This document shows positions 3,789 through 33,188 of a DNA stretch of 57,112 nt, one piece after another (position 1 is the stretch's first letter; each line of letters begins with the position of its first letter). A program made the translations under genes and the position numbers. The DNA is from a virus, in IMG/VR virus record IMGVR_UViG_3300005519_000204, positions 1 to 57,112 of that record; one strand, given 5' to 3'. The notes beneath the pieces were generated by a model. It worked only from the letters and a program-made list of their open reading frames with translations. It was not told the origin of the DNA and did not search any database.

Positions 3789-3833
3789 GGCCGACAGCGT
3801 AGGGACGCCCGTGCGTGCACTGGGCCGCGCGTT

Positions 3834-3857
3834 GTTCTTATGCGTGAGGTACAGAAC
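3834..3857. promoter_or_regulatory. Candidate Ogr-type late activator site, P/O divergent promoters
   Basis: A perfect dyad, GTTCT-N14-AGAAC, lies in the 147-bp gap between P and O. Its centre is 57 bp upstream of the P start and about 90 bp upstream of the O start. An identical dyad precedes V. P2 late promoters are bound by Ogr at a TGT-N12-ACA dyad centred near -55. I infer that this symmetric site serves both divergent late operons in this phage. Confidence 0.55.
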
Positions 3858-3935
3858 CGCGCCGCGTTGCCGCTGCGTGCGGCGCTATCGATGCTGGCGA
3901 CCTATTCCCGCCCCCACGTCACCGAGGCTCGTTGC

Positions 3936-8017: not shown

Positions 8018-8580
8018 TCCCGTTTCCCGAGCAACGCATCGAGCAGCTCATCACCGCCGTGATGAAGGCCGAAGGCTGGGATGCGTATACCAACGATCCG
8101 ATGGATCCCGGCAAGGAAACCAAGTGGGGCATCACCCTCGCGGCCGCGCGCGCCTATGGCTACACGGGTGCGATGAAAGACCTGCCCGAGACGATCGCGC
8201 GTGCGATTTACCGCAAACGCTACGTGGACGAGCCGCGCTTCGCCGACGTGGTCGCGATCGAACCGAACATCGGCGCGGAGCTGATCGATACGGGCGTCAA
8301 CATGGGCACGGCCGTCGCCACGACCTTCCTGCAGCGCTGGCTCAATGGCTTCAACGACACCGGCAGCCGCTACGGCGACCTGCATGTGGATGGCCGCCTC
8401 GGCGCCGTCACGCTCGATGCGCTGCGCGCCTTCCTGCGCTGGCGGGGGCCGCAGGGCATTACCGCGCTGCTGCGTGGCCTCAACGGCGTGCAGGCGACGC
8501 GCTATCTGGAACTCACCGAAGCCCAACCGTCCCAGCGCAAATACCTCTTGGGCTGGGTGCTCAACCGTGTGGAGATGTAG
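8014..8580 (+). CDS. Endolysin, GH108-type N-acetylmuramidase
   Basis: A 188-residue peptidoglycan hydrolase. The motif 'AEGWDAYTNDPMDPGKETKW' followed by 'GIT' matches the glycoside hydrolase 108 signature, with Glu20 as the probable catalytic acid. The usual E-G-G is E-G-W here. The C-terminal part ('GVNMGTAVATTFLQRWLN', then 'DGRLGAVTLDALRAFL') is the GH108-associated peptidoglycan-binding domain. There is no signal peptide, so export depends on the holins. It takes the place of P2 endolysin K. The ATG at 8014 overlaps the preceding stop. Confidence 0.9.
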   Translation: MIPFPEQRIEQLITAVMKAEGWDAYTNDPMDPGKETKWGITLAAARAYGYTGAMKDLPETIARAIYRKRYVDEPRFADVVAIEPNIGAELIDTGVNMGTAVATTFLQRWLNGFNDTGSRYGDLHVDGRLGAVTLDALRAFLRWRGPQGITALLRGLNGVQATRYLELTEAQPSQRKYLLGWVLNRVEM

Positions 8581-8584
8581 AACC

Positions 8585-9325
8585 GTGTCCTTGTTTCAGT
8601 TGCACCAGGGTGAAGCGCTGAGTTTTCTTCGCACGCTTCCCGATGCGTCGGTCGACGCGATCATCACCGATCCACCCTACAGTTCCGGTGGCTTGCACAT
8701 GACGCAACGCCAACAGTCGCCGGTCAAGAAATACGTGCAGACCGGCACGCAGCGCCCGTACCACAGCTTCAGCGGCGACAACCGCGATCAGCGCAGCTGG
8801 ACGCTGTGGGTGACGTTGTGGCTTTCCGAGGCCTTGCGCGTGGCCAAGCCCGGTGCGCCGGTGGTGCTTTTCACCGACTGGCGGCAGCTGCCCAGCACCA
8901 CGGATGCACTGCAGACCGCCGGCGCGACCTGGCGCGGCATCGTGCCGTGGCTCAAACCCGCCGGCCGGCCGAGCGGGCCAGGCCGTTTCCGCAATGGCGC
9001 CGAATACGCGGTCTGGGGCAGCAAGGGCGACATGCCGCCGCGCGAAGCGGTCGGCTACCTGCCCGGCTACCACGTCGAATCGATCCGTCAGAAGGACAAG
9101 CACCACGTCACCGGCAAGCCCACGGACCTGATGCGCGCCATCGTGCGCGTGTGCCCACCGGGCGGCGTGATCCTGGACCCGTTCGCCGGCAGCGGCACCA
9201 CCGGCGTCGCCGCACTGATGGAAGGACGCCGCTTCCTTGGCGCGGAGCTCGACGGCGTCCATTGCGAGATCGCGCGCTGTCGCATGGAAGGCGTTCTCCA
9301 GCCAGCGGAGGCAGACGCTGCATGA
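8585..9325 (+). CDS. Orphan DNA methyltransferase, beta class (N6-adenine/N4-cytosine)
   Basis: A 246-residue methyltransferase. Catalytic motif IV DPPY lies at 29-32 and AdoMet-binding motif I 'DPFAGSGTT' at 198-206. This order (IV before I) defines the beta class. The middle section ('SFSGDNRDQRSW', 'WLKPAGRPSGPGRFRNGAEY') carries the target-recognition region. I chose the GTG at 8585, 4 bases after the endolysin stop, because it begins 'MSLFQLHQGEAL', as expected just before motif IV. The final ATGA overlaps Rz, so it is embedded in the lysis operon. There is no restriction enzyme beside it. It may protect phage DNA from host restriction or modify the host after induction. Confidence 0.88.
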   Translation: MSLFQLHQGEALSFLRTLPDASVDAIITDPPYSSGGLHMTQRQQSPVKKYVQTGTQRPYHSFSGDNRDQRSWTLWVTLWLSEALRVAKPGAPVVLFTDWRQLPSTTDALQTAGATWRGIVPWLKPAGRPSGPGRFRNGAEYAVWGSKGDMPPREAVGYLPGYHVESIRQKDKHHVTGKPTDLMRAIVRVCPPGGVILDPFAGSGTTGVAALMEGRRFLGAELDGVHCEIARCRMEGVLQPAEADAA

Positions 9326-9825: not shown

Positions 9826-10247
9826 ACAAGCCGGGACGCTTTCGTACCGCGCTGCTGGCCGCGTTGCCGGAGCTGGCCGGCGATCCGCAGCGTCTGTCGA
9901 TTTTCGTGGAGAAAGGCAAGCTCGTGGCAACAGCTACCGACGGCGCGGGCTGGCAGTACAGCTACCAGCTCACCGCGATCGTGCAGGACTTTGCCGGCGA
10001 CATGGATGCGCTCGCCAAGGCCGTGATTGCGTGGGTGGCGGTCGAGCAGCCGGACATGCTCAAGAACCCGGCGCAAGCGGAGCGCGGCATTCGTTTCGAA
10101 TGCGAATTGATGACGTCGGAGCTGGCCGACGTATCGATCGAAATCGATCTGACCGAAGCGGTGTACGCAGGCGACGGCGGTACGTTCGAGCACCCGGCCG
10201 AACCACCGGCCGATCCCACAAGCACGTGGCAGTGGTCGACGACCTGA
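9822..10247 (+). CDS. R: Tail completion protein (P2 gpR-like)
   Basis: A 141-residue protein of the P2 gpR family, which caps the tail and is needed for head-tail joining. The family core 'MNKPGRFRTALLAALPELAG' and 'IVQDFAGDMDALAKAVIAWV' is present. It overlaps Rz by 4 bases and the S gene by about 22 bases. Its C-terminus 'ADPTSTWQWSTT' is encoded across the start of S. Confidence 0.88.
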   Translation: MNKPGRFRTALLAALPELAGDPQRLSIFVEKGKLVATATDGAGWQYSYQLTAIVQDFAGDMDALAKAVIAWVAVEQPDMLKNPAQAERGIRFECELMTSELADVSIEIDLTEAVYAGDGGTFEHPAEPPADPTSTWQWSTT

Positions 10248-10711
10248 CCCAGCTCGAGCTGTGGGCGGCGCCATGGCTGGCCAAGCTTGCACCCGCACAG
10301 CGCCGACAGCTCGCGCGTACCATCGCGCTCGACCTTCGCCGCTCGCAGCAGCAACGCATCGCCGCGCAGATCGCGCCGGACGGCACGACGTATGTGGCAC
10401 GCAAACGACGCACGACCTCACTGCGTAACAAGCGTGGCGCCCACCGTCGGAAGAAAGATGCCATGTTCGTCAAACTGCGCACGGCGCGATGGCTAAAAAT
10501 CAATGTGACGAACGACGGTGCCGAGGTCGGCTTCTTCGGACGCGTCGCGCGCCTGGCGCGTGTGCATCAGGAAGGCGGCATGGATCGCGTCACATCCGGT
10601 GGACCGACAGTGAGATATCCCGCGCGACCGCTGCTGGGGTTCACGTCAAACGAGCGTCAAAAAATCCTCCATCGTCTCCTCGACTACTTGAACGACAAAA
10701 GCGTCGAATAA
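10226..10711 (+). CDS. S: Tail completion / virion morphogenesis protein (P2 gpS-like)
   Basis: A 161-residue protein of the P2 gpS (virion morphogenesis) family. Visible elements are 'LWAAPWLAKLAPAQRRQLAR', a long basic segment, 'AMFVKLRTARWLKIN' and 'GFFGRVARLARVHQEGG'. The likely start is GTG at 10226 (or the GTG at 10232) within the end of R. No ATG lies at the expected place. The C-terminal third exists again as a decayed copy at about 12226-12345. The five-paralogue array follows it and separates S from V. Confidence 0.87.
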   Translation: MAVVDDLTQLELWAAPWLAKLAPAQRRQLARTIALDLRRSQQQRIAAQIAPDGTTYVARKRRTTSLRNKRGAHRRKKDAMFVKLRTARWLKINVTNDGAEVGFFGRVARLARVHQEGGMDRVTSGGPTVRYPARPLLGFTSNERQKILHRLLDYLNDKSVE

Positions 10712-10757
10712 AACAAATACGGGGCCAGTTAAGGCCATGGCCTCATACTCACCGGCC

Positions 10758-11012
10758 ATGGACCCGAAACTACACCTTCGTATCGTTGCCTATTTCATCG
10801 AAGCGAACGCGACCTATTCGGACAGCCAGAAGGCGTGCACGATTTCCTTAACCCATCTCTCGGCGGTTTACGATCGTATCGTACGCGGTGAACCGGGCGA
10901 CCTGTCACACCAATTGGACCTGGATGACGCCCTTCAAATGGGTGCCCGCGATGGCCTGTGGACCATGCAGTACGACAAGGACAGCGATGAAGTTATGGTT
11001 GTCCTTTGCTAG
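10758..11012 (+). CDS. Tandem small-protein family, copy 1 (unknown function)
   Basis: An 84-residue protein starting 'MDPKLHLRIV'. The frame is open from an ATG at 10737, but the second ATG (10758) aligns with the starts of the four other copies. Shared positions are Tyr20-Ser21, Ile29-Ser30 and 'GARDGLW' (62-68), with a hydrophobic C-terminal strand ('EVMVVLC'). A 3-residue insertion precedes 'LDDALQMGAR'. No signal peptide, membrane segment or known domain is seen. It is soluble, acidic and predicted alpha/beta. It sits 46 bases after S in the late operon, so expression late in the lytic cycle is likely unless it has its own promoter. Confidence 0.75.
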   Translation: MDPKLHLRIVAYFIEANATYSDSQKACTISLTHLSAVYDRIVRGEPGDLSHQLDLDDALQMGARDGLWTMQYDKDSDEVMVVLC

Positions 11013-11098
11013 GTTTTCACACGCATAACACGCTACTACCACGTGAAGAGACCCATGCTCCCCCACCGGTTTGCTTGGTGGTTGACTTTGGTACGGCA

Positions 11099-11392
11099 AT
11101 GGATCGGAAAACCTTCCGTGGCCTCATCGCACGACTGGCGGTGATGAACGCCACATATTCGAGATGGCACGATGCCTGGACGATTTCTGTCACCGAACTC
11201 ATGGCTGTCTACAGGCGATACATCAAGCTCGCTCCCCACGATCTGCCGTTGATCCATGACGCCATTGCGGATGGGGCGCGCGAGGGACTGTGGCAGTTGG
11301 ATCGGTCCATGGATGCCACCGATGTTCTCCTCCTCCTTGCAAAGCCGCAGCACGCGCAACTTCCGCAGCGCATCATGCCAGCGAGGGTCTAG
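11099..11392 (+). CDS. Tandem small-protein family, copy 2 (unknown function)
   Basis: A 97-residue member of the array, starting 'MDRKTFRGLI' at 11099. The frame is open from 11006 without homology. It keeps Y20-S21, 'AWTIS' (26-30), and 'GAREGLW' (59-65), then 'DVLLLLA'. It has a C-terminal extension of about 15 residues, rich in Gln, Arg and Pro, absent from the others. It is the closest to copies 1 and 4 at the N-terminus ('NATYS', 'DAWTIS'). The gap to copy 1 is 86 bases. Confidence 0.75.
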   Translation: MDRKTFRGLIARLAVMNATYSRWHDAWTISVTELMAVYRRYIKLAPHDLPLIHDAIADGAREGLWQLDRSMDATDVLLLLAKPQHAQLPQRIMPARV

Positions 11393-11560
11393 GCGGCCTC
11401 CCCTGGCGCCCTTCACGTCACTCCTCATTGATCTGGATCAATGCGTCACTGGCGCTGTGGCGATATATCCCTCAACATGGGAGCGAGAGATAAGTCAGAA
11501 CCCTTGATCCTTGCACAAGAAACAGTCACCACGCCACGGCTATTTGCGAGCGACGATGCC

Positions 11561-11806
11561 ATGACCTTGGATGACTATTTTCGTTTCATCGTGCAGGCGC
11601 TCCGAGCGCGTTGCACCTATTCGGTCGCTCGCAAGGCTTGGGAAATCTCCGGTCTGGAAGCGGAAATCCTATTCCTTGAATACTCGAATCGGTGGCCCTC
11701 CGAACTGGCTTCGCCCGAAGATGCCTTTCAAGAGGGGGAGCGCCGCGGATTTTGGACAAGAGATATTGGCGACCATTTCAAAACCGACACTCTCGTAATG
11801 AAGTAA
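11561..11806 (+). CDS. Tandem small-protein family, copy 3 (unknown function)
   Basis: An 81-residue member starting 'MTLDDYFRFI'. Y20-S21, 'AWEIS' (26-30), 'EDAFQEGERRGFW' (53-65) and 'TLVMK' at the end align without gaps to copies 4 and 5. In the G-x-R-x-G-x-W motif the second position is Glu and the sixth Phe, so this copy has diverged more. The open frame begins at 11441, but the upstream part has no match in the other copies. The gap to copy 2 is 168 bases. Confidence 0.72.
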   Translation: MTLDDYFRFIVQALRARCTYSVARKAWEISGLEAEILFLEYSNRWPSELASPEDAFQEGERRGFWTRDIGDHFKTDTLVMK

Positions 11807-11908
11807 CAGTCATGGCAGATAAATCGGCGCCAGGCTGTTTCCTCTAGTAGCACTCTTGCCACGGTCATCCTGCGCCTGTGACGGCGCGATTTTCAGCAGG
11901 TCGGCGGC

Positions 11909-12154
11909 ATGGATAGGCAGGATTATTTACACCTGATCGAGCGGACTATACGGAATTTCTCGATGTACTCGCATGCCAAGGACGCCTGGACGATCTCCGT
12001 AGCGCATCTCAAACTGTCCTTGCAACTTTACGCAGAAGAACTCCCACCGGGCCTTCCCTCCGTGGAGGAAATGCTCGACGAAGGCGCTCGCAAAGGTCTC
12101 TGGGCGCTGGTCGTCGATCACGAAAGTGGTCTCGCCATTGTCGTTTTTAAATAG
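11909..12154 (+). CDS. Tandem small-protein family, copy 4 (unknown function)
   Basis: An 81-residue member, 'MDRQDYLHLIERTIRN'. Y20-S21, 'AWTIS' (26-30), 'P..LPSVEEMLDEGARKGLW' (46-65) and a final 'AIVVFK' strand are present. The start is unambiguous: it is the first ATG of the frame, preceded by CAGGTCGGCGGC. A 320-base stretch follows, holding a relic of the S gene, before copy 5. Confidence 0.75.
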   Translation: MDRQDYLHLIERTIRNFSMYSHAKDAWTISVAHLKLSLQLYAEELPPGLPSVEEMLDEGARKGLWALVVDHESGLAIVVFK

Positions 12155-12225
12155 TCGCCAAGACTCATCTGCTCGGTGAAAGTATGGTTTAAGCAGGCAC
12201 CGGTGGAACCCCACACGACTAGCAG

Positions 12226-12345
12226 TGCGATCCGCCGAAAAGGGCCATGTTCATTAAGTTGCGCACCGAACGGAAATTGAGTGACGGTCACACCGAGGCG
12301 GTGGGGCTGAGCTTTCCCTGCGCGCATCCGTTCGGTGCGCATGAC
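12226..12345 (+). pseudogene. Decayed second copy of the S-gene 3' end
   Basis: The stretch reads 'AMFIKLRTERKL' from 12244, matching 'AMFVKLRTARWL' of the intact S at about 10459-10494. The match continues weakly in shifted frames on both sides ('IRRK' before, 'ARIRSV' after). It has no start and several frame changes. It is best explained as the remains of an S gene whose 3' end once lay directly upstream of copy 5. Confidence 0.5.
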
Positions 12346-12474
12346 CGGAAAGCGGGTCCATCACGCCAGATTCACAACTAACTTACATCAGGCAACGCAG
12401 GATCACGCCCCGAAACACGTGCATGACCAACGTCTCCACCCTTGCGATGGAGACCCACGACGGAAGAGGTCATT

Positions 12475-12720
12475 ATGGAAACAGACACGTTTTTTCATGT
12501 GGTCGAAGACCTGGTGAAAAGCAACGCGGATTACTCCGAAACCACCGGTCATCGCATCATCTCCCTCCACCGCCTTCGCGTGATCTACAAGGAAAGGACG
12601 GGCACCTGGCCGTTGAAGTTGCTATCGCTGCAAGAGGCGGTGGAAGAAGGCGTGCGCAAAGGCTGCTGGGAAATGGACTACGACGAGGAATCCGACATGG
12701 ACATCATCGTCCTCTGTTGA
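12475..12720 (+). CDS. Tandem small-protein family, copy 5 (unknown function)
   Basis: An 81-residue member, 'METDTFFHVVEDLVKS'. It keeps Y20-S21, I29-S30, 'LQEAVEEGVRKGCW' (52-65) and the acidic 'DYDEESDMDIIVLC' end, which closely resembles the end of copy 1 ('YDKDSDEVMVVLC'). GAAGAGG precedes the ATG, a good ribosome binding site. It is the copy next to V, and the V late-promoter dyad starts 38 bases after its stop. Confidence 0.75.
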   Translation: METDTFFHVVEDLVKSNADYSETTGHRIISLHRLRVIYKERTGTWPLKLLSLQEAVEEGVRKGCWEMDYDEESDMDIIVLC

Positions 12721-12757
12721 CGGAGCGGTGGCGCCGGTCGCCCCGGCATCCTGGTGT

Positions 12758-12781
12758 GTTCTGGGCGGCATGATCCAGAAC
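12758..12781 (+). promoter_or_regulatory. Candidate Ogr-type late activator site upstream of V
   Basis: This is the second instance of the perfect dyad GTTCT-N14-AGAAC, identical in half-sites and spacing to that at 3834-3857. Its centre is about 48 bp before the V start at 12818 and 57 bp before the alternative V start at 12827. P2 has a late promoter at this place (P_V). The site therefore probably drives V-W-J-I-fibre and the tail genes. Confidence 0.55.
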
Positions 12782-12817
12782 GCACCGTAGCTGCGCGCGT
12801 TCACGCATGCCCGCAGC

Positions 12818-13411
12818 ATGATGGGCATGTCCGATGACATCCCGCGCCAACTCGCCAACCTGATCCGCTTCGGCACGGTACACGCCGTTGCCGGCAAGCG
12901 CGTGCAGGTCAAACTCGGCGGCTTGCTCACGCGCCCGCTTCCGTGGCTCGCCACGCGCGCCGGCACCACCAAGACGTGGGCGCCGCCCGATATCGGTGAG
13001 CAAGTGATGGTGCTCTCGCCCAATGGCGACGTCGGCGCTGGCGTCGCCATCGGCGGCATCTTCTGCGATGCCTTCGATGTACCCAGTGAGGCACATGCCG
13101 ACACCGTCGTAATGGCCTTCGGCGATGGCGCGGTGGTGCTGTATGACCAGGCGACCCATGTGTTCAGGGCCACGCTACCCGCCGAAGGCCGCGTGGCGGT
13201 GACGGCGCCGGGTGGTATCACCCTCACCGGCCACGTGACCATCGACGGCGAACTCAGTGTCTCGCAAGCGGCGACCTTCGCGCAAACCGTGCATGCGAGC
13301 CAGGCCATCACCAGCGATGCCGACGTCAAGGCCGGCGCCATCAGCCTGACGAACCACCCGCACGCCAACGTGCAGCCCGGCGGCGGGATCAGCGGAAAGC
13401 CCCTGCCATGA
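12818..13411 (+). CDS. V: Baseplate spike protein (P2 gpV-like)
   Basis: A 197-residue protein of the P2 gpV family, the trimeric membrane-piercing spike. The N-terminal OB-fold region ('IRFGTVHAVAGKRVQVKLG', 'PDIGEQVMVLSPNGD') is followed by repetitive beta-helix-like sequence ('VTAPGGITLTGHVTIDGELS'). It ends 'LTNHPHANVQPGGGISGKP', the His-containing apex that binds iron in P2 V. Two in-frame starts are possible (12818, 12827). The later one gives 'MSDDIPRQLANLIRFG' and a better distance from the late-promoter dyad. Confidence 0.92.
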   Translation: MMGMSDDIPRQLANLIRFGTVHAVAGKRVQVKLGGLLTRPLPWLATRAGTTKTWAPPDIGEQVMVLSPNGDVGAGVAIGGIFCDAFDVPSEAHADTVVMAFGDGAVVLYDQATHVFRATLPAEGRVAVTAPGGITLTGHVTIDGELSVSQAATFAQTVHASQAITSDADVKAGAISLTNHPHANVQPGGGISGKPLP

Positions 13412-24669: not shown

Positions 24670-25209
24670 TCACTCGTGAGTCAACCCTAAGGGAATCACC
24701 GCGACGTTCGACTTCAACTTACCTCCCAACATATTGCCTCCGGCAAGGGCGAAGCAGAGCGATCCCTGATCGGCATTCGCAGCCAACCTTTCCACGTATG
24801 CTTGGTACGCAAACGGAGGCCCTTTGGCCATCGCTGCCGCGTATTCAGGGGGCGCTTTCGTGCTGTCATTGATCAGCAGCTTGCCCCAATAAATCTTACC
24901 GTAGTGTCGAATGCTGTCCTGCACTCCGGCTTTGGTACATGGTCCAACCGCGAAGGTCACGTTGTAGTCCTTCGATGCAGACAGCGCTAGTAGGTCCGTG
25001 CTGGTTGTGAAATCGATACGGGAAATGATTTTTGACGGATGTGGGGGATGATCCACAAAGTCGATTTGCGTCTGGCCTTTGTAGTCCACATCGCTCACCG
25101 ACGTCACTCGAATATCTCTCGGACTGCCGCCGAATGGTAAAGAGCACGCGGTGAGCGAGACCAAGCATATGGCAATAACGGCTGTTGACAATCGGCTATG
25201 CGAAGCCAT
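24670..25209 (-). CDS. Lipoprotein of the RHS cargo block, unknown
   Basis: A 179-residue lipoprotein with AGGAGG nine bases before ATG 25209. The signal peptide ends in the lipobox 'LTAC' (about Cys22), so it is anchored in a membrane facing the periplasm. The mature part is a soluble domain without recognised motif ('GQTQIDFVDHPPHPSKIISR', 'CTKAGVQDSIRHYGKIYWGK'). Two Cys could form a disulfide. It is followed 7 bases later by the Sel1-like gene. Because toxin tips of secreted RHS proteins act outside or on neighbours, a periplasmic immunity lipoprotein is plausible, but this is only inference. Confidence 0.7.
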   Translation of the reverse strand: MASHSRLSTAVIAICLVSLTACSLPFGGSPRDIRVTSVSDVDYKGQTQIDFVDHPPHPSKIISRIDFTTSTDLLALSASKDYNVTFAVGPCTKAGVQDSIRHYGKIYWGKLLINDSTKAPPEYAAAMAKGPPFAYQAYVERLAANADQGSLCFALAGGNMLGGKLKSNVAVIPLGLTHE

Positions 25210-25429
25210 AGTCAATTGCCTCCTCGCCCAGAGATAAAAGGTGAAGTCACCGTGAGCTGACCAGCGAGGACTTGTTCTCGACTACTTATGCCGGGACCGG
25301 GGGCACTCATCAGACTCCTAAGAATGGTGGAGCTCTATCCATGCAGAAGCACCAACAACAACCCAATGCAAGACAGGTCCACCATGTCGCAAATACTAGA
25401 AGTAGTTGAACGCTGAACCGAGGCAACAG

Positions 25430-25813
25430 CTAGGAAAACATTTTGTAAAAAACTCTGTTTCCCCAGTCGTCTTCGTACGCCGCAAGGATCTTTTCCAGGG
25501 GCCTGCCATCGACCCTCGGTCGGTCTAGCTTATGCAATTCCTTTTCCACCCAAACCCGAAATTCCGGCCAGCGCAATTTATGAACTAGAACGGCAACGGG
25601 CTCATCACTTATCGATTTTGAAGAAAACAGTGATCCGATAAGAGCAACAATGTCAGATCGGCTTATGGCTTGCCTGCCAATAATTTCCAAGCAACGATCA
25701 TAATGTGGTTCCGCAAGATCGAAGGAATATTCCGTATCCAAGACTTCTTCGGCAGCAAGCAACTCCGACTTAAGTTCCATGAGATCTGCATCACTGCTAT
25801 GGCTACCGCTCAT
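25430..25813 (-). CDS. Small acidic cytosolic protein downstream of RHS, candidate immunity
   Basis: A 127-residue protein. The start 'MSGSHSSDADLMELKSELLA' is chosen because GGAG stands 7 bases upstream; the frame is open to 25984 but would then overlap the previous gene by over 120 bases. It appears all-helical ('DRCLEIIGRQAISRSDIVAL', 'KLRWPEFRVWVEKELHKLD') with no signal peptide. Position directly after the RHS gene pair, low GC, acidity and size are those of polymorphic-toxin immunity proteins, though I do not recognise a named family. It ends 'WGNRVFYKMFS'. Confidence 0.62.
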   Translation of the reverse strand: MSGSHSSDADLMELKSELLAAEEVLDTEYSFDLAEPHYDRCLEIIGRQAISRSDIVALIGSLFSSKSISDEPVAVLVHKLRWPEFRVWVEKELHKLDRPRVDGRPLEKILAAYEDDWGNRVFYKMFS

Positions 25814-25859
25814 CACCAGCTCCGATACATGACTAAGCCCAGTGGCCATTTGGCCATCG

Positions 25860-26255
25860 CTATTGAGCTGTAAACTCGACAGACCCTCCTGATCCCGGAG
25901 TAAGACCAACCGCCAAGTAATGAACATCTCGCTCCAGCGGCTTTGCCTTCGTTGTCTCCGCGAATCCAACAGGTACTTCGCCATACGTCACATTGGATAG
26001 CGGCTTAGCATTACCAGGAGAAAGCTCAAATGCCCACATGGGATTTTTGTAGTCCCAGTGCCCTGAGTCATCACGCTTTACTACAAGAAAGGTATTAACT
26101 TCCACGCCACCAGCCTTAGGCGCACCACTTCCTTCAAAGTGAAACGAGATCAAGGATGCACCGTCATGTACAACTTTGATGGTGTATCTAGATGACATTC
26201 CACAGAGATTGAATGCAAGTAGGAAAAGAGCAAGTGACATTAAGACGCTTTTCAT
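25860..26255 (-). CDS. Secreted protein coupled to the RHS gene
   Basis: A 131-residue protein starting immediately after the RHS stop (TAA-ATG). Its ribosome binding site (AGGAG) lies inside the last RHS codons, so translation is tightly coupled. A signal peptide (residues about 1-19) precedes a beta-rich mature domain with 'DGASLISFHFEGSGAPKAGG', 'LSNVTYGEVPVGFAET' and 'ERDVHYLAVGLTPGSGG'. Proteins of this look often accompany RHS genes. Being exported, it could be the cognate immunity protein of a periplasm-acting tip, or a chaperone. The family is not identified. Confidence 0.7.
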   Translation of the reverse strand: MKSVLMSLALFLLAFNLCGMSSRYTIKVVHDGASLISFHFEGSGAPKAGGVEVNTFLVVKRDDSGHWDYKNPMWAFELSPGNAKPLSNVTYGEVPVGFAETTKAKPLERDVHYLAVGLTPGSGGSVEFTAQ

Positions 26256-29200
26256 TTATCGATCTCCTATAAACCAGATTGGCGGAGCACCACGATTCAT
26301 GCCAAGACCTACCTGGTTTAGTAGAGATTCATAGTCAGGAAGAGCTGGCGACCATGGCCGCTGCAGGGCAGCATAATAATCCGCAACTATCGCTGCCTGT
26401 TGTTCATATCGATAATCGTTGAAGCAACCGTGTTCGCTCAAGCTATATTTGTATGTGTCACTTCTTGTTCCCTCCATAGCTGCCTTGCGCCAGCTGTAGT
26501 TGGGATTGTTCTGGTACTGATAAACATGAGTCATCTCGTGCGCCAGCCAAGCTTGGTCAGTCAAATTAGCCTTGGAGAAGTCCGATTGGTAGCCCGACGA
26601 AGGAAAATGGATAGTATTTTCAAGAGTGACAGCATTGTCAGTGGCTATAGGCGCCCAGGCACGCGGATCCAAGCCAGCACCCGATACAATGTTCACTTTC
26701 GAGAAATCCACGGTGTTATTGAATACTTGATTGAGCATCGATATTTCTCCGGACGTCGGCGGACGAAGCCCTAGTGGATCGACATAGTCCAGCGGGCTCC
26801 CATTCACATAGTTATATGTGTTGATTCCCCCTTGCAGACCTGCAGGATCGCTCTGAAGGTAACGCCCAGCGGGCGCTTCATAGTAGCGATTCACGTTATA
26901 GATCAATCCTGTTTCCTGGTCGTAGTACTGACCGGGGAAACGCAAATTGAGCACATAGCCACCTACTGACATGGGTGCCACCTCGCCCCATGGATTGCCT
27001 TGGTAAGCCCACTGCCAGATTACTGTACCCGTACTGCTAGCTACCGCACGCGGCGTGCCGAGCCCGTCGGCGTAAACGTAGTTGACAGTGGTCGTCATGG
27101 TTCCGCTCAAACTTGAAGTACCCGTGCCTGGCGAAGGCGCTTTGATTGGGCCACCGTGAATCGGACACGACGAGAAAGACGTGCAAGAAGATGTGCTTGT
27201 GGGATTGCTTGTGGCGCTGACATCGACGGTCGCCACTGGAATGTCGCCCATCCACACATAATCACGCGTGGATGCACCATACTCGCCCACCAAATGCTTG
27301 GCTTCATCGTAGCCGTACCGCACTGTACCGCTTCCAGTTTTGCTAATCCGCTGGCGCAGCGCGTTGTAGGTATAAGTGCCAACAGTGGCCCCCGCGAATT
27401 GGGCAACCGTCAATACATTGCGGCTACTGTAGCCAAACCCGTAGGTGCCACTTGCTTGCGTAATCGCTGTCGTGTTGCCATCGGCGTCCACAGTCCGTGC
27501 CTGATTTCCGATCGCCGTCAGCTGGTGAGTGCCAGAGCCGTACGTGTAGGAGCCGGTATCCAAGTCAGATGCGGCTTTGGTCAAACGATCGCCCGTCTGG
27601 TTGTACGTTACGCTTTCGAGCGTAGAGCCATCGGCCTCAGTTACCGCCGTCAAGCGATATAGCGGATCATAGCTGTAAGTTTCGGTGGCCGGATTAGCCC
27701 CGCTGGCGTTGCCGATCGCCGTGATGTCGCCCATCATATCGCGAGCCAGATGTAACGAAAACGCAGCGCTAGTGATATCCGTCAGGCGGTAGTTGGCATC
27801 GTAGGCGCGTGCAACGGCCTGACCGTTACCCAAGGTGTAGCCACTGACCGGACCGAATGGTTGATAGGTAACGTTACTTACTACCGTGGTGGCCGTCGTG
27901 CTACCCGAGGGTATCACGCTCACCGACTGGATACGTCCATCGGCATCCCTGGTGTAACTCACTTGGGTCCCACTTGGATACACAATGCTGGTTACCCTCC
28001 CAGCAGCGCTAACCGCATAGCCGGTTGTATCCGTTGTCCCATTGATGGTTTGCTGCTTCTCAATGACGTTGCCACGCGCATCGTAGCAATACACCGTGGT
28101 TACGCTGTTCTCAATAATGCGCGTCAGTCGCCCGACTGGATAGCTGCTGCTGCAGCCCGTGACGCTGTTTGCTTCGTCGTAGGCATAGGTAACGTTCTGG
28201 GTGCCATCCGGGTAGCTGGTGCTGATTAGACGATTCAGAACATCGTACGTATTGATAGCCGTGATGCCCTTTGCGTCGGTACTTGTCAGTACATTGCCTG
28301 CGGCATCGAAGGTGCGGCTGGTGGTTCCCGTATCCGGACTAACCTGGCCGGTTGTATCGCTCAGCCCGTCGTAGCTGTAAGTAGTGTTGAGGTTACCAGG
28401 ATCGGTGACTTGAGTGAGCCGATCTAGGCTGTCATAGCCGTATTGAATGGTCGTGTTCTTGGTTGCACCATCGTTGCCGTTGTAGTTGTCGATAGTTTGC
28501 ACTAGACGATTCAAGGCGTCATAGCTCTGTTTGCGCAGAATGCCCAGGCCATCTGCGTCCTGCACGAGATTGCCGTTGGCGTCGTAGTTACCGCTAGCGC
28601 TGGCGTCGAACGTCGTGTGGTTGAGGCCGTCCATGACCTTGGTGAGCTGGCCAAGAGTATTGAAATTGCGACTCAAGCTTTTATGGAGCGTCCCGCTGCT
28701 GTCGTAGGTCTTTTCGGCCGTTTTGTTGCCCGCCGCATCCAGTGTGTATTGCACATAATTGCCCTGTGCATCAGTGATCTTCACCAAGCGATGAGCTGCA
28801 TCGTAACCATACGTCGTGACAACCCCATCAGGATCCGTGACAGTTTGCACGGCCCCATAGGGCGTATAAGTGAAGCTCGTAGTAGCACCCCCTACTATGC
28901 TGGACGCAAGCCAACCGCGCGCCGTATAGGACATATCCGTATTGATCCCATTCGCGTCCGTAGTGCGCGTGACGCGGCCATCGGCGTCATAGGAGGCGAT
29001 GGTCGTAACGTGACCCGCCGCATCGGTAATAGTGTGAATGTCACCGACTTGATAGCAGGCCGCGCCCGGCGTGCCACAGTTCGTCGCGCTACTCGTCAGG
29101 TAATAGGTATACGTGGTCGTTTGCGTAACGTCGGTTCGTGGCCCAGTGATAGTCAGCGTCAATCCGACGAAAGGACACTGCGTGGTGTCGACGACGGTGC

Positions 29201-31529
29201 AGTAGGTATAGGTGGAGCGACGTACTCCGCTCGGCACGCTACCGCTGGTGCTGCACGCATATCTCGAGGCTGCGCTGTTGCCTGGGTCGATATCGCAACG
29301 AGCCAAAACCTGTCCGATGCCATTGTAGATCCATTGCGTGGAACCAACAGTGTTGCCAGACGCGTCCACGATAGTACGTGTCAAAGGTACACGTAGCGTG
29401 GTGTTCCAAGTGAAGTTAGTGGCTCGTTGATTCCGTGTACCGGAAGCCTCGACCTGCTGATCGAGCAAACCATTCGTATCATAGGTGGTGACAGTAACGT
29501 TGCCATTGAAGTCCGTGGCCGAGGCGAGGTAACCATTAGCGTCGTAGGTGCTCGACGCATACGGCTGATCGCATTGCACGCCGCACGGTGCACTCGCGGT
29601 AGCGCGCTGGAAGGAGCCGAATTGCTGGTTGAAGGTCAGTGTTGACTGCGAACCGGTCGGATAGGTCACCGTAGATGTACCATCCGCGTTGTAAGCCACC
29701 TGGGTCTCTGCGATGTTGGATGCCAGCATGGACATCGTAGCCTTGCCTTGAGTGTTGTAGCTGATGCTAGTGAAGCGGATGCTGGTCTCGTCAATGTCGC
29801 CTGTCAGTGCAGCAGGAAGGTTGGCACCACTGGTCAGTGTGCTTTCGTTGTACACATACTGGCGTGATGACTTGTCTGGATACGTGACAGAGGTCAAATT
29901 CCTGTTTCCGTCGTAGCCATAGGTCACCGAACCTCCATCGGGTTCCGAGATGGCGGCCACCGTTGCATTGCTGTTGTAGGTGAAATTCAGCGCCCGGCCT
30001 CGAGGATCGGTCACCGTAAGCAGCAAACCCGCCGCAGGCGCAACGCTACTAGGTGTGGAGCTGGTGCTATACGCCAGTGTGGTGACCAAACCGTCCGTGT
30101 CGGTGATGGAAAGTAGATTTCCATTTTTATCGTAACTTTCCTGGTAACGCGTAGTGGAATCGAAATACGTCCACCCTGTGAGCGCGCCGGAAGTATCTGT
30201 CTGAGGGGTAAGACGATCGGCAACATCGGGATCCGCAACCCACTGGCCTGAGGTCAACGTAAAGTTGAGTTCTCGCCCGTCCGGCCGAAATGCCGTGGCG
30301 ACGGTCAGCCCAATACTTGGTACGTACTCAATGCTCCGATCGAAGGTGTGACGCCAATTTGTACCCATGTGCGCCGGGGCGACAGACGTCTGGCTGTTGT
30401 AATAGCGATGGAAGCTTAAAGCGCCCAGCGAGATGTCTTCGTCATCCTTGTACTCGTTCCCTGTTGCGGAATTGATGGGATCGCCAATGCAGTTGCACGA
30501 CTTGCCAAGCTCCTTTCCGTTTGGATTGCCCGGGACAACTGCCAAATAGCCGATGCTTTCCGCGGTGGTTGAAGTGTGCCCGGGGTCATACGCGCTGAAG
30601 GACGACACGATGGCCCCGGTTTGCATATTGACGCGAAAAACATTACCGCTGTTCGAATCGGCCATCCAAAGGGTATGGTTGTCTGGATCGGGGTAGACGG
30701 AACCGAGTGATGCATAGTACGGACCATCGTTAAATTCATATTGATTAAGAACACCGCCCGAGCTACTCAATAGAAAAACGTAATCCCAGCTAGCCACCAG
30801 CAGATTGTCGTTGGGGAGCTGACGAACATCATATAAAACCTCTGTACCGCCGAAAGGGTCAGAGAGCGATGACACGAAATCGGATAATTGCGTATTGGTG
30901 CAGATGTTGAACTGGTGAATGCTGTCGCCCCCGGTGGTGTAGCGCATCGTGCAGTGATCGTTGGCTAACGCCATGTGGTCGATCGCATCACCCGTACTTG
31001 GGTCGACAGGTATGGAATAACTAGTAAGAAGATTGCCGTTGCCGTCAAACTTTAGAATCGCACCCGGACTGTTGTTCGAGGAAGGGTTTTGTCCGACATA
31101 GACATTGCCGTTGTTATCAAATGCCACCGACGTGGGAAAGGCGTATCCACCGCCAAATAGGCCCATGACACCGCTGTTACTGATGGTATGGATGGCCTCG
31201 TCGTATGTGCCATCAGTCGGAATGTAGAGATTGTTGGATGCATCTACGCTCAGAGATCCAAAATAGGCGTTATTGGTGCCAAAGTTGAAGTTGTCCAGCA
31301 ACACGCCGTTGGGGCTGAAGTGCTTGACGTGATGACCCCAGGTAGAGCCCGCACCTGTGAACGTGGTGACAAAAACTTCTCCGGGCCGGAGAGGGACTCC
31401 GTCTGCGAACGCAGGTTGGAGGCACAAGCTAACTGCTAGCGCCGCAAGCAGGCGTGCGATTGAAAAGCTGTATTTATGCGGGCGGTACGTACTAGAAGTA
31501 TTTACCTGCTTCCAAACAAAACCATTCAT
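26256..31529 (-). CDS. Secreted RHS/YD-repeat polymorphic toxin with HExxH metallopeptidase-like tip
   Basis: A 1,757-residue protein. The start at 31529 is preferred over 31541 because GGAG lies 6 bases upstream. A basic N-terminus and hydrophobic segment ending 'CLQPAFADG' form a Sec-type signal. Residues about 45-340 contain NHL-like propeller repeats ('SLSVDASNNLYIPTDG', 'TSVAFDNNGNVYVGQN'). The RHS entry motif 'CIGDPINSATGNEYKDDEDI' and dozens of YD repeats follow, closing with 'LIYNVNRYYEAPAGRYLQSD' and 'DPLGL' near 1583. The remaining 170 residues are the variable tip: 'HEMTHVYQY' (H1664-E-x-x-H1668) and 'YRYEQQAAIVADYY' suggest a zincin. It differs from the phage genes in GC and lies between D and cI as cargo. 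Confidence 0.85.
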   Translation of the reverse strand: MNGFVWKQVNTSSTYRPHKYSFSIARLLAALAVSLCLQPAFADGVPLRPGEVFVTTFTGAGSTWGHHVKHFSPNGVLLDNFNFGTNNAYFGSLSVDASNNLYIPTDGTYDEAIHTISNSGVMGLFGGGYAFPTSVAFDNNGNVYVGQNPSSNNSPGAILKFDGNGNLLTSYSIPVDPSTGDAIDHMALANDHCTMRYTTGGDSIHQFNICTNTQLSDFVSSLSDPFGGTEVLYDVRQLPNDNLLVASWDYVFLLSSSGGVLNQYEFNDGPYYASLGSVYPDPDNHTLWMADSNSGNVFRVNMQTGAIVSSFSAYDPGHTSTTAESIGYLAVVPGNPNGKELGKSCNCIGDPINSATGNEYKDDEDISLGALSFHRYYNSQTSVAPAHMGTNWRHTFDRSIEYVPSIGLTVATAFRPDGRELNFTLTSGQWVADPDVADRLTPQTDTSGALTGWTYFDSTTRYQESYDKNGNLLSITDTDGLVTTLAYSTSSTPSSVAPAAGLLLTVTDPRGRALNFTYNSNATVAAISEPDGGSVTYGYDGNRNLTSVTYPDKSSRQYVYNESTLTSGANLPAALTGDIDETSIRFTSISYNTQGKATMSMLASNIAETQVAYNADGTSTVTYPTGSQSTLTFNQQFGSFQRATASAPCGVQCDQPYASSTYDANGYLASATDFNGNVTVTTYDTNGLLDQQVEASGTRNQRATNFTWNTTLRVPLTRTIVDASGNTVGSTQWIYNGIGQVLARCDIDPGNSAASRYACSTSGSVPSGVRRSTYTYCTVVDTTQCPFVGLTLTITGPRTDVTQTTTYTYYLTSSATNCGTPGAACYQVGDIHTITDAAGHVTTIASYDADGRVTRTTDANGINTDMSYTARGWLASSIVGGATTSFTYTPYGAVQTVTDPDGVVTTYGYDAAHRLVKITDAQGNYVQYTLDAAGNKTAEKTYDSSGTLHKSLSRNFNTLGQLTKVMDGLNHTTFDASASGNYDANGNLVQDADGLGILRKQSYDALNRLVQTIDNYNGNDGATKNTTIQYGYDSLDRLTQVTDPGNLNTTYSYDGLSDTTGQVSPDTGTTSRTFDAAGNVLTSTDAKGITAINTYDVLNRLISTSYPDGTQNVTYAYDEANSVTGCSSSYPVGRLTRIIENSVTTVYCYDARGNVIEKQQTINGTTDTTGYAVSAAGRVTSIVYPSGTQVSYTRDADGRIQSVSVIPSGSTTATTVVSNVTYQPFGPVSGYTLGNGQAVARAYDANYRLTDITSAAFSLHLARDMMGDITAIGNASGANPATETYSYDPLYRLTAVTEADGSTLESVTYNQTGDRLTKAASDLDTGSYTYGSGTHQLTAIGNQARTVDADGNTTAITQASGTYGFGYSSRNVLTVAQFAGATVGTYTYNALRQRISKTGSGTVRYGYDEAKHLVGEYGASTRDYVWMGDIPVATVDVSATSNPTSTSSCTSFSSCPIHGGPIKAPSPGTGTSSLSGTMTTTVNYVYADGLGTPRAVASSTGTVIWQWAYQGNPWGEVAPMSVGGYVLNLRFPGQYYDQETGLIYNVNRYYEAPAGRYLQSDPAGLQGGINTYNYVNGSPLDYVDPLGLRPPTSGEISMLNQVFNNTVDFSKVNIVSGAGLDPRAWAPIATDNAVTLENTIHFPSSGYQSDFSKANLTDQAWLAHEMTHVYQYQNNPNYSWRKAAMEGTRSDTYKYSLSEHGCFNDYRYEQQAAIVADYYAALQRPWSPALPDYESLLNQVGLGMNRGAPPIWFIGDR

Positions 31530-32069
31530 AGCTCGCTCCATGGGCTGAGGTAGTAGTGGACCGCTCGACTACAGTGGTTTATCCAAACAAACAGAACTTG
31601 ATAGGCGTACTACGCGGACTGCACAGGCGGCGTGCCGGATCGGCATAAATGCGCAGGCCGTGAGGTCTCACCAACTTCAGATGGAAACGAAGGCGCACGC
31701 GCAAAGCGTCGACACGAAGCGCCGCATCACCGTCGGATATCCCCTGTTTTAAGACGAGCACGTGCTGAACATGCACCCGTACAACCTGCATGTACTGCTT
31801 ATGCGTGAGCGTTGCTCGTGCACAGCAATTTCGCCAAATAGGGTGCGCAGCAGTTCGTGACGATTTCGTGATAATGCGAATGCTCTGCTCGTAGGCAGGT
31901 TCTCTTTTTCACGTCGGCGTTTTCTTACACGCCCTTCCGATGCTGCGTCATAGCTGCATGGGCTGATCACGACAGCTTTCGTAAAATCTTATCTGGGAGC
32001 AGGCCTGGGGCAGATAGCCATAATCAAAAGGCGCTGGCCTTGCAGCTCAATCGGTGCCGCGCCGCGAGC
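31530..32069. other. Intergenic region upstream of the RHS gene
   Basis: About 540 bases between the RHS start and the CI repressor stop. Short open frames on both strands lack ribosome binding sites and homology. No strong hairpin-T terminator or clear -35/-10 pair is obvious. It presumably holds the RHS promoter and the junction between phage core and cargo. Confidence 0.4.
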
Positions 32070-32858: not shown

Positions 32859-33188
32859 ATGACAGCCCCGCGCAACACCATCGCCTGCCCGCACTGCCAC
32901 GCGCGCATGCGCACGATCACCTCCCGGCAACTGAGCACCCTGGTGCGTGAAATCTACTTCGACTGCATGAATGTCGATTGCAGTCACCGCTGCGTGGCGC
33001 AGCTGGGGATCGTTCGCACCCTGGTGCCGAGCTTGATCCCGGATGCCCTAGTGTCCTTGCCTATCGTGGCGCGCCGCGCCAACGACATCGTCGTGGCACC
33101 GGCGACGCAGCCAACCACCGACCCAACCCCTGCGCCACCGTGTTCCGGTGCGGCAGGTTCCCACTACGCACCGATGGCGCTCAACTGA
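32859..33188 (+). CDS. ogr: Ogr/Delta-type zinc-finger late transcription activator
   Basis: A 109-residue protein with the Ogr/Delta zinc-binding pattern C10-x2-C13 ... C36-x4-C41 ('CPHCHARM', 'FDCMNVDCSHRC'), which in P2, P4 and 186 activators contacts DNA and the RNA polymerase alpha subunit. The N-terminal 75 residues are the activator domain; the C-terminal tail is Pro/Thr/Ala-rich and probably disordered. It lies in the early operon rather than next to D. Its likely targets are the two GTTCT-N14-AGAAC dyads. Confidence 0.85.
   Translation: MTAPRNTIACPHCHARMRTITSRQLSTLVREIYFDCMNVDCSHRCVAQLGIVRTLVPSLIPDALVSLPIVARRANDIVVAPATQPTTDPTPAPPCSGAAGSHYAPMALN

Follow-up and report, generated by a model that had tools for sequence, protein, structure and literature searches.

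The junction between the tail completion gene S and the baseplate spike gene V is an already known slot for accessory genes in P2-like phages. P2 itself carries the minus-strand gene orf30 there, annotated as nonessential, and the original prediction of an empty junction in P2 is therefore incorrect. In Burkholderia P2-like phages the S-V interval is one of three regions rich in genes foreign to P2; KS5 carries an Old-type exonuclease in it and KL3 a DNA methylase (PMC3091744). The well-known defence hotspot of P2 lies elsewhere, between gpA and gpQ (PMC9122126).

The window analysed here, a 57,112-nucleotide virus record from IMG/VR, comprises a P2-like prophage and, after it, a portion of a lambda-like prophage. 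The lambda-like tail genes (tape measure, L, J-type tip and tube; minus strand, 40-57 kb) adjoin the P2-like prophage, and an N6/N4 DNA methylase gene (8345-9325, +) is found among the lysis genes of the latter. Its S-V junction holds an array of five small genes. This array has in common with the P2 orf30 locus the slot itself, located between S and the activator site of the V promoter, and variable, presumably non-essential cargo. However, its contents are unrelated to those of the orf30 locus, including the KS5 and KL3 cargo, and it consists of tandem paralogues on the late-operon strand accompanied by relics of S. The P2/P4 antiviral hotspots (gpA-gpQ and cos-proximal; PMC9122126) are likewise small high-turnover loci between two conserved phage genes, but the array occupies another position and none of its five copies belongs to a known defence family. 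The slot is therefore not new, whereas the protein family and its stacking at this site appear to be.

Gene S (10232..10711, +), the last before the array, has an orthologue in all relatives with a full junction, and gene V (Phage_base_V; 12827..13411, +), the first after it, has a further in-frame ATG at 12818. An inverted repeat, TGTTCT-N14-AGAACG, is located 70 bp upstream of V (12757..12782), and a second copy (3833..3858) lies between the divergent genes for terminase P and the capsid scaffold O. These are the two repeats with at most one mismatch in the P2-like part of the window, compared to none in 20 shuffles. A repeat of the form TGTTCT-N14-AGAACA is found at -70 or -71 from V in 10 relatives of the same clade and at -61 in two more distant phages, while P2's own activator motif, TGT-N12-ACA, shows no enrichment in the window. 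Because the annotated activator site of the P2 V promoter is at -69 and the prophage possesses an Ogr/Delta-type late activator gene (32859..33188, +; PF04606, E 7e-18), which is the likely reader of both sites, the repeat upstream of V is likely a late-activator site, as judged from sequence. The cargo of all relatives is confined to the interval between the S stop and this putative site, and hence leaves both late operons intact. In the cassette-free L024 this site starts two bases past the S stop.

All five open reading frames of the original prediction are present on the plus strand. Copy 1 (84 residues; 10758..11012) and copy 2 (97 residues, with a C-terminal tail of 16 residues; 11099..11392) constitute subfamily D and are 41% identical; copy 1 may instead start at the in-frame ATG at 10737, which is preceded by a better Shine-Dalgarno sequence and would extend the protein to 91 residues. 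Copy 3 (81 residues; 11561..11806) belongs to subfamily B, which is common to L065, L025, L012 and L022, and copy 4 (81 residues; 11909..12154) to subfamily C, with 52% identity to the first copy in L065. Copy 5 (81 residues; 12475..12720), of subfamily A, has an orthologue in six other phages, and its leader (12360..12474, +) is conserved as DNA with L013, L017 and L018. Copy 5 alone has a strong Shine-Dalgarno sequence (GGAAGAGG); those of copies 2-4 are weak. All frames are open with intact motifs, and they encode small, mostly acidic, non-membrane proteins. The GC content of the copies is 52-59%, compared to 63-67% in S, V and J.

The proposed end-to-end relatedness of these proteins is confirmed by leave-one-out profiles, in which any four copies recover the fifth (E 4e-13 to 1.7e-19; best of 9,999 shuffles, E 0.05), and by z-scores of 7.9-13.6 between pairs of copies. 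A MAFFT alignment of the five copies has 11 invariant columns (M1, Y20, S21, I29, S30, P46, L49, G59, R61, G63 and W65); in copy 1, those beyond an insertion are displaced by three positions. The columns include the predicted motif of Tyr20-Ser21, Ile29-Ser30 and G-x-R-x-G-x-W at 59-65. In the wider family the invariant positions are reduced to M1, G59 and W65; S21 and G63 come close to invariance, and R61 varies.

We found no described family to which these proteins could be assigned, in agreement with the original prediction: copies 1-5 gave no match above cut-off against the Pfam, PHROGs, NCBIfam and PADLOC profiles or the sequences of the PDB, and Rfam gave none either. Weak Pfam, PHROG, NCBIfam and PADLOC matches (E 0.025-0.3) and a PDB sequence match to Taq polymerase (E 0.7) were discarded as noise. 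A match in L009 proved to be a CsgG-like protein sharing merely the stretch EEGARKGLW, and was attributed to chance. No homologue was found in plasmids or isolated phages, and a viral scan with copies 1 and 2 as queries returned a sister contig as its sole match. Two short-peptide-pattern scans of bacterial genome contigs, sensitive to close relatives only, detected no relative; since bacterial contigs were scanned in this way alone, the occurrence of the family is stated here for this phage clade.

Among the relatives gathered by scanning with J and with members of the family, the family was found only in a clade with J identity of at least 83%, where it always lies between S and V on the plus strand; about 60 more distant P2-like loci yielded no member. 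Copy number varies among related prophages, as had been suggested: five in the window and the sister contig, at least three in L022, two in L012, L025 and L065, and one in L013, L016, L017, L018 and L032. L014 has a decayed remnant of the family. L020 and L024 possess no copy, and their late genes and activator site are as in the carriers. The slot of close relatives thus holds from 0 to 5 copies, and in several of them other genes: SLFN_AlbA_2 in L013, an ADP-ribosylglycohydrolase in L032, RraB, DUF6968 and DUF6714 proteins in L018, and a weak DUF4145 match in L011. Two further slot genes lie on the minus strand. One, in L014 (125-1291), encodes a ricin-type lectin domain protein with an apparent signal peptide, and the other, in L016 (4200-4811), a 204-residue protein without a Pfam match but with the motifs GHASIRL and NNCTGCVAEAL. 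Judging from its absence in relatives, the slot cargo would be dispensable for phage growth.

The phylogenetic tree groups copy 5 with its six orthologues and copy 3 with members of L065, L025, L012 and L022, and joins copies 1 and 2 (support 93/90), while several forks are weakly supported; the nearest relative of copy 4, by identity, is one of the L065 members. These subfamilies recur across phages in differing order, indicating that the array was built from old subfamilies rather than by one recent amplification, and the predicted old age of the copies is borne out by long-separated subfamilies common to several phages. Traces of turnover are also seen. For instance, L012 and L022 differ by one extra cassette of ~415 bp with flanks ~87% identical on both sides. 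Moreover, relics of S are found between cassettes or before copy 5 in three phages (257 bp in L065, 84 bp in L032 and 36-55 bp in the window; best E 1e-42). The relic of the window (12222..12272, +) is short, with 75-86% nucleotide identity to the S genes of relatives and an E of about 1e-5. These relics suggest that cassettes may be gained by recombination anchored in S. The copy-5 genes of the window, L013, L017 and L018 have dS values of 0.08-0.29, below the 0.55-0.90 of the neighbouring V, which points to a recent exchange of the copy-5 block. Their dN/dS does not agree with the diversifying selection considered in the original prediction: it is 0.06-0.33 among copy-5 orthologues, the one well-testable group, and 0.29 for one subfamily-B pair, indicating purifying selection in both, whereas pairs of different copies are too diverged for this measure.

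AlphaFold models of copy 5 and copy 1 (pLDDT 83.0 and 83.5) agree in a topology of helix, hairpin, two helices and a two-strand wing, and the family members are therefore predicted to fold as winged helices. Winged-helix domains, some of them DNA-binding and others protein-binding, make up most of the best PDB fold matches, none of which falls below E 0.009. The same helix-hairpin-helix-helix-wing topology is known from FurB/Zur, MarR/PadR, the T138 eWH, the Sir3 wH, LOTUS and the C-terminal domain of ScpA, but the copies have no sequence match to these proteins and differ from them in an acidic reading helix and wing. The third helix (H3) and the wing are the best-conserved long elements, H3 being the most conserved helix across paralogues, and H3 and the first wing strand each have a mean net charge of -1.69. 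No basic, DNA-contacting third helix or wing, as in DNA-binding regulators, is found.

We consider the array most likely to be a new accessory-cargo family of predicted winged helices in the orf30 slot, probably acting as protein-binding conflict factors (probability about 0.5). Cassettes of several long-separated subfamilies would circulate among related P2-like phages, and would be acquired, stacked or lost through recombination anchored in S, so that S relics stay between them. No sigma-70 promoter was found for the array. Its genes lie on the S strand with no recognisable promoter, and it is hence probably transcribed by read-through from the late operon ending in S. As the conserved helix and wing are acidic, protein binding or DNA mimicry seems the most likely activity, and in this way each protein may inhibit some part of a host defence or of a rival element; an array of diverged copies would then widen the range of targets. 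The specific form of this proposal, in which acidic winged-helix inhibitors with one defence or competitor target per copy form an exchangeable repertoire stacked by recombination anchored in S, is put forward tentatively. The locus would accommodate an anti-defence or exclusion role, given that the slot contains an Old-type exonuclease or a DNA methylase in other P2-like phages, although some of the other cargo points partly to toxin-immunity or secreted functions instead. Anti-CRISPR loci, too, are typically clusters of small and divergent phage proteins at variable sites, and the array resembles them in this respect; it differs from them in being composed of paralogues of one family and in the lack of a visible separate aca-type regulator. 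Of the original interpretation, the old paralogues, variable copy number, absence of a described family and accessory nature of the cargo are thus retained, while the empty P2 junction is abandoned, as is diversifying selection for the copy-5 orthologues.

The immunity-like part of the slot cargo (ADP-ribosylglycohydrolase, RraB, DUF6968 and DUF6714 proteins) raises another, rather unlikely explanation, namely that the lysogen is protected because every copy counteracts an interbacterial toxin. Tandem diverged immunity paralogues are a known pattern, to which small, mostly acidic, non-membrane proteins in a diverged tandem array conform, and the same prophage encodes a 1761-residue RHS-repeat protein (26259-31541, -) with DUF6531 and an eCIS_core match near the C-terminus. 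The two ORFs after the RHS gene (25433-25984 and 24673-25215, both -) could be immunity proteins. However, the RHS gene is ~14 kb from the array and has these downstream ORFs of its own, no recognisable toxin gene adjoins any copy in the loci read, the Pfam immunity families give no match, and the late-operon strand and spacing disfavour constant expression. It is also doubtful that the copies are small transcription regulators of phage or host promoters. The predicted fold is frequent among DNA-binding regulators, but the would-be recognition helix is at once the best conserved and acidic (mean net charge -1.7) and the wing is acidic too, which argues against a classical DNA-binding regulator; L020 and L024, moreover, keep the same late genes and activator site without any copy.

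The position and strand of the array inside the late tail region, between S and V, would suit accessory components of the virion or of tail assembly, which might form a hetero-oligomer. We regard this as improbable, since relatives sharing the same S and V lack the copies, the copy number ranges from 0 to 5, the GC content of the copies is below that of virion genes, and other phages place unrelated enzymes in the slot, some on the opposite strand; phages with a single copy further speak against an obligate five-part complex. Least plausible of all is that these are decaying selfish cassettes, kept by recombination and mostly functionless. The weak Shine-Dalgarno sequences of copies 2-4, the decayed remnant in L014 and the turnover recorded by the S relics would fit such a process, but the five frames of the window are all open with intact motifs, and purifying selection acts on the copy-5 orthologues.

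The preferred reading, accessory cargo that probably binds proteins, suggests how a P2-like phage gains cargo with its late operons unbroken, by recombination anchored in S. The slot is bounded by the S stop and the activator site of the V promoter, and natural relatives exist with 0, 1, 2, at least 3 or 5 cassettes. Comparison of phages that differ mainly at the slot could therefore show how a repertoire of small proteins is gained and lost and what it does.
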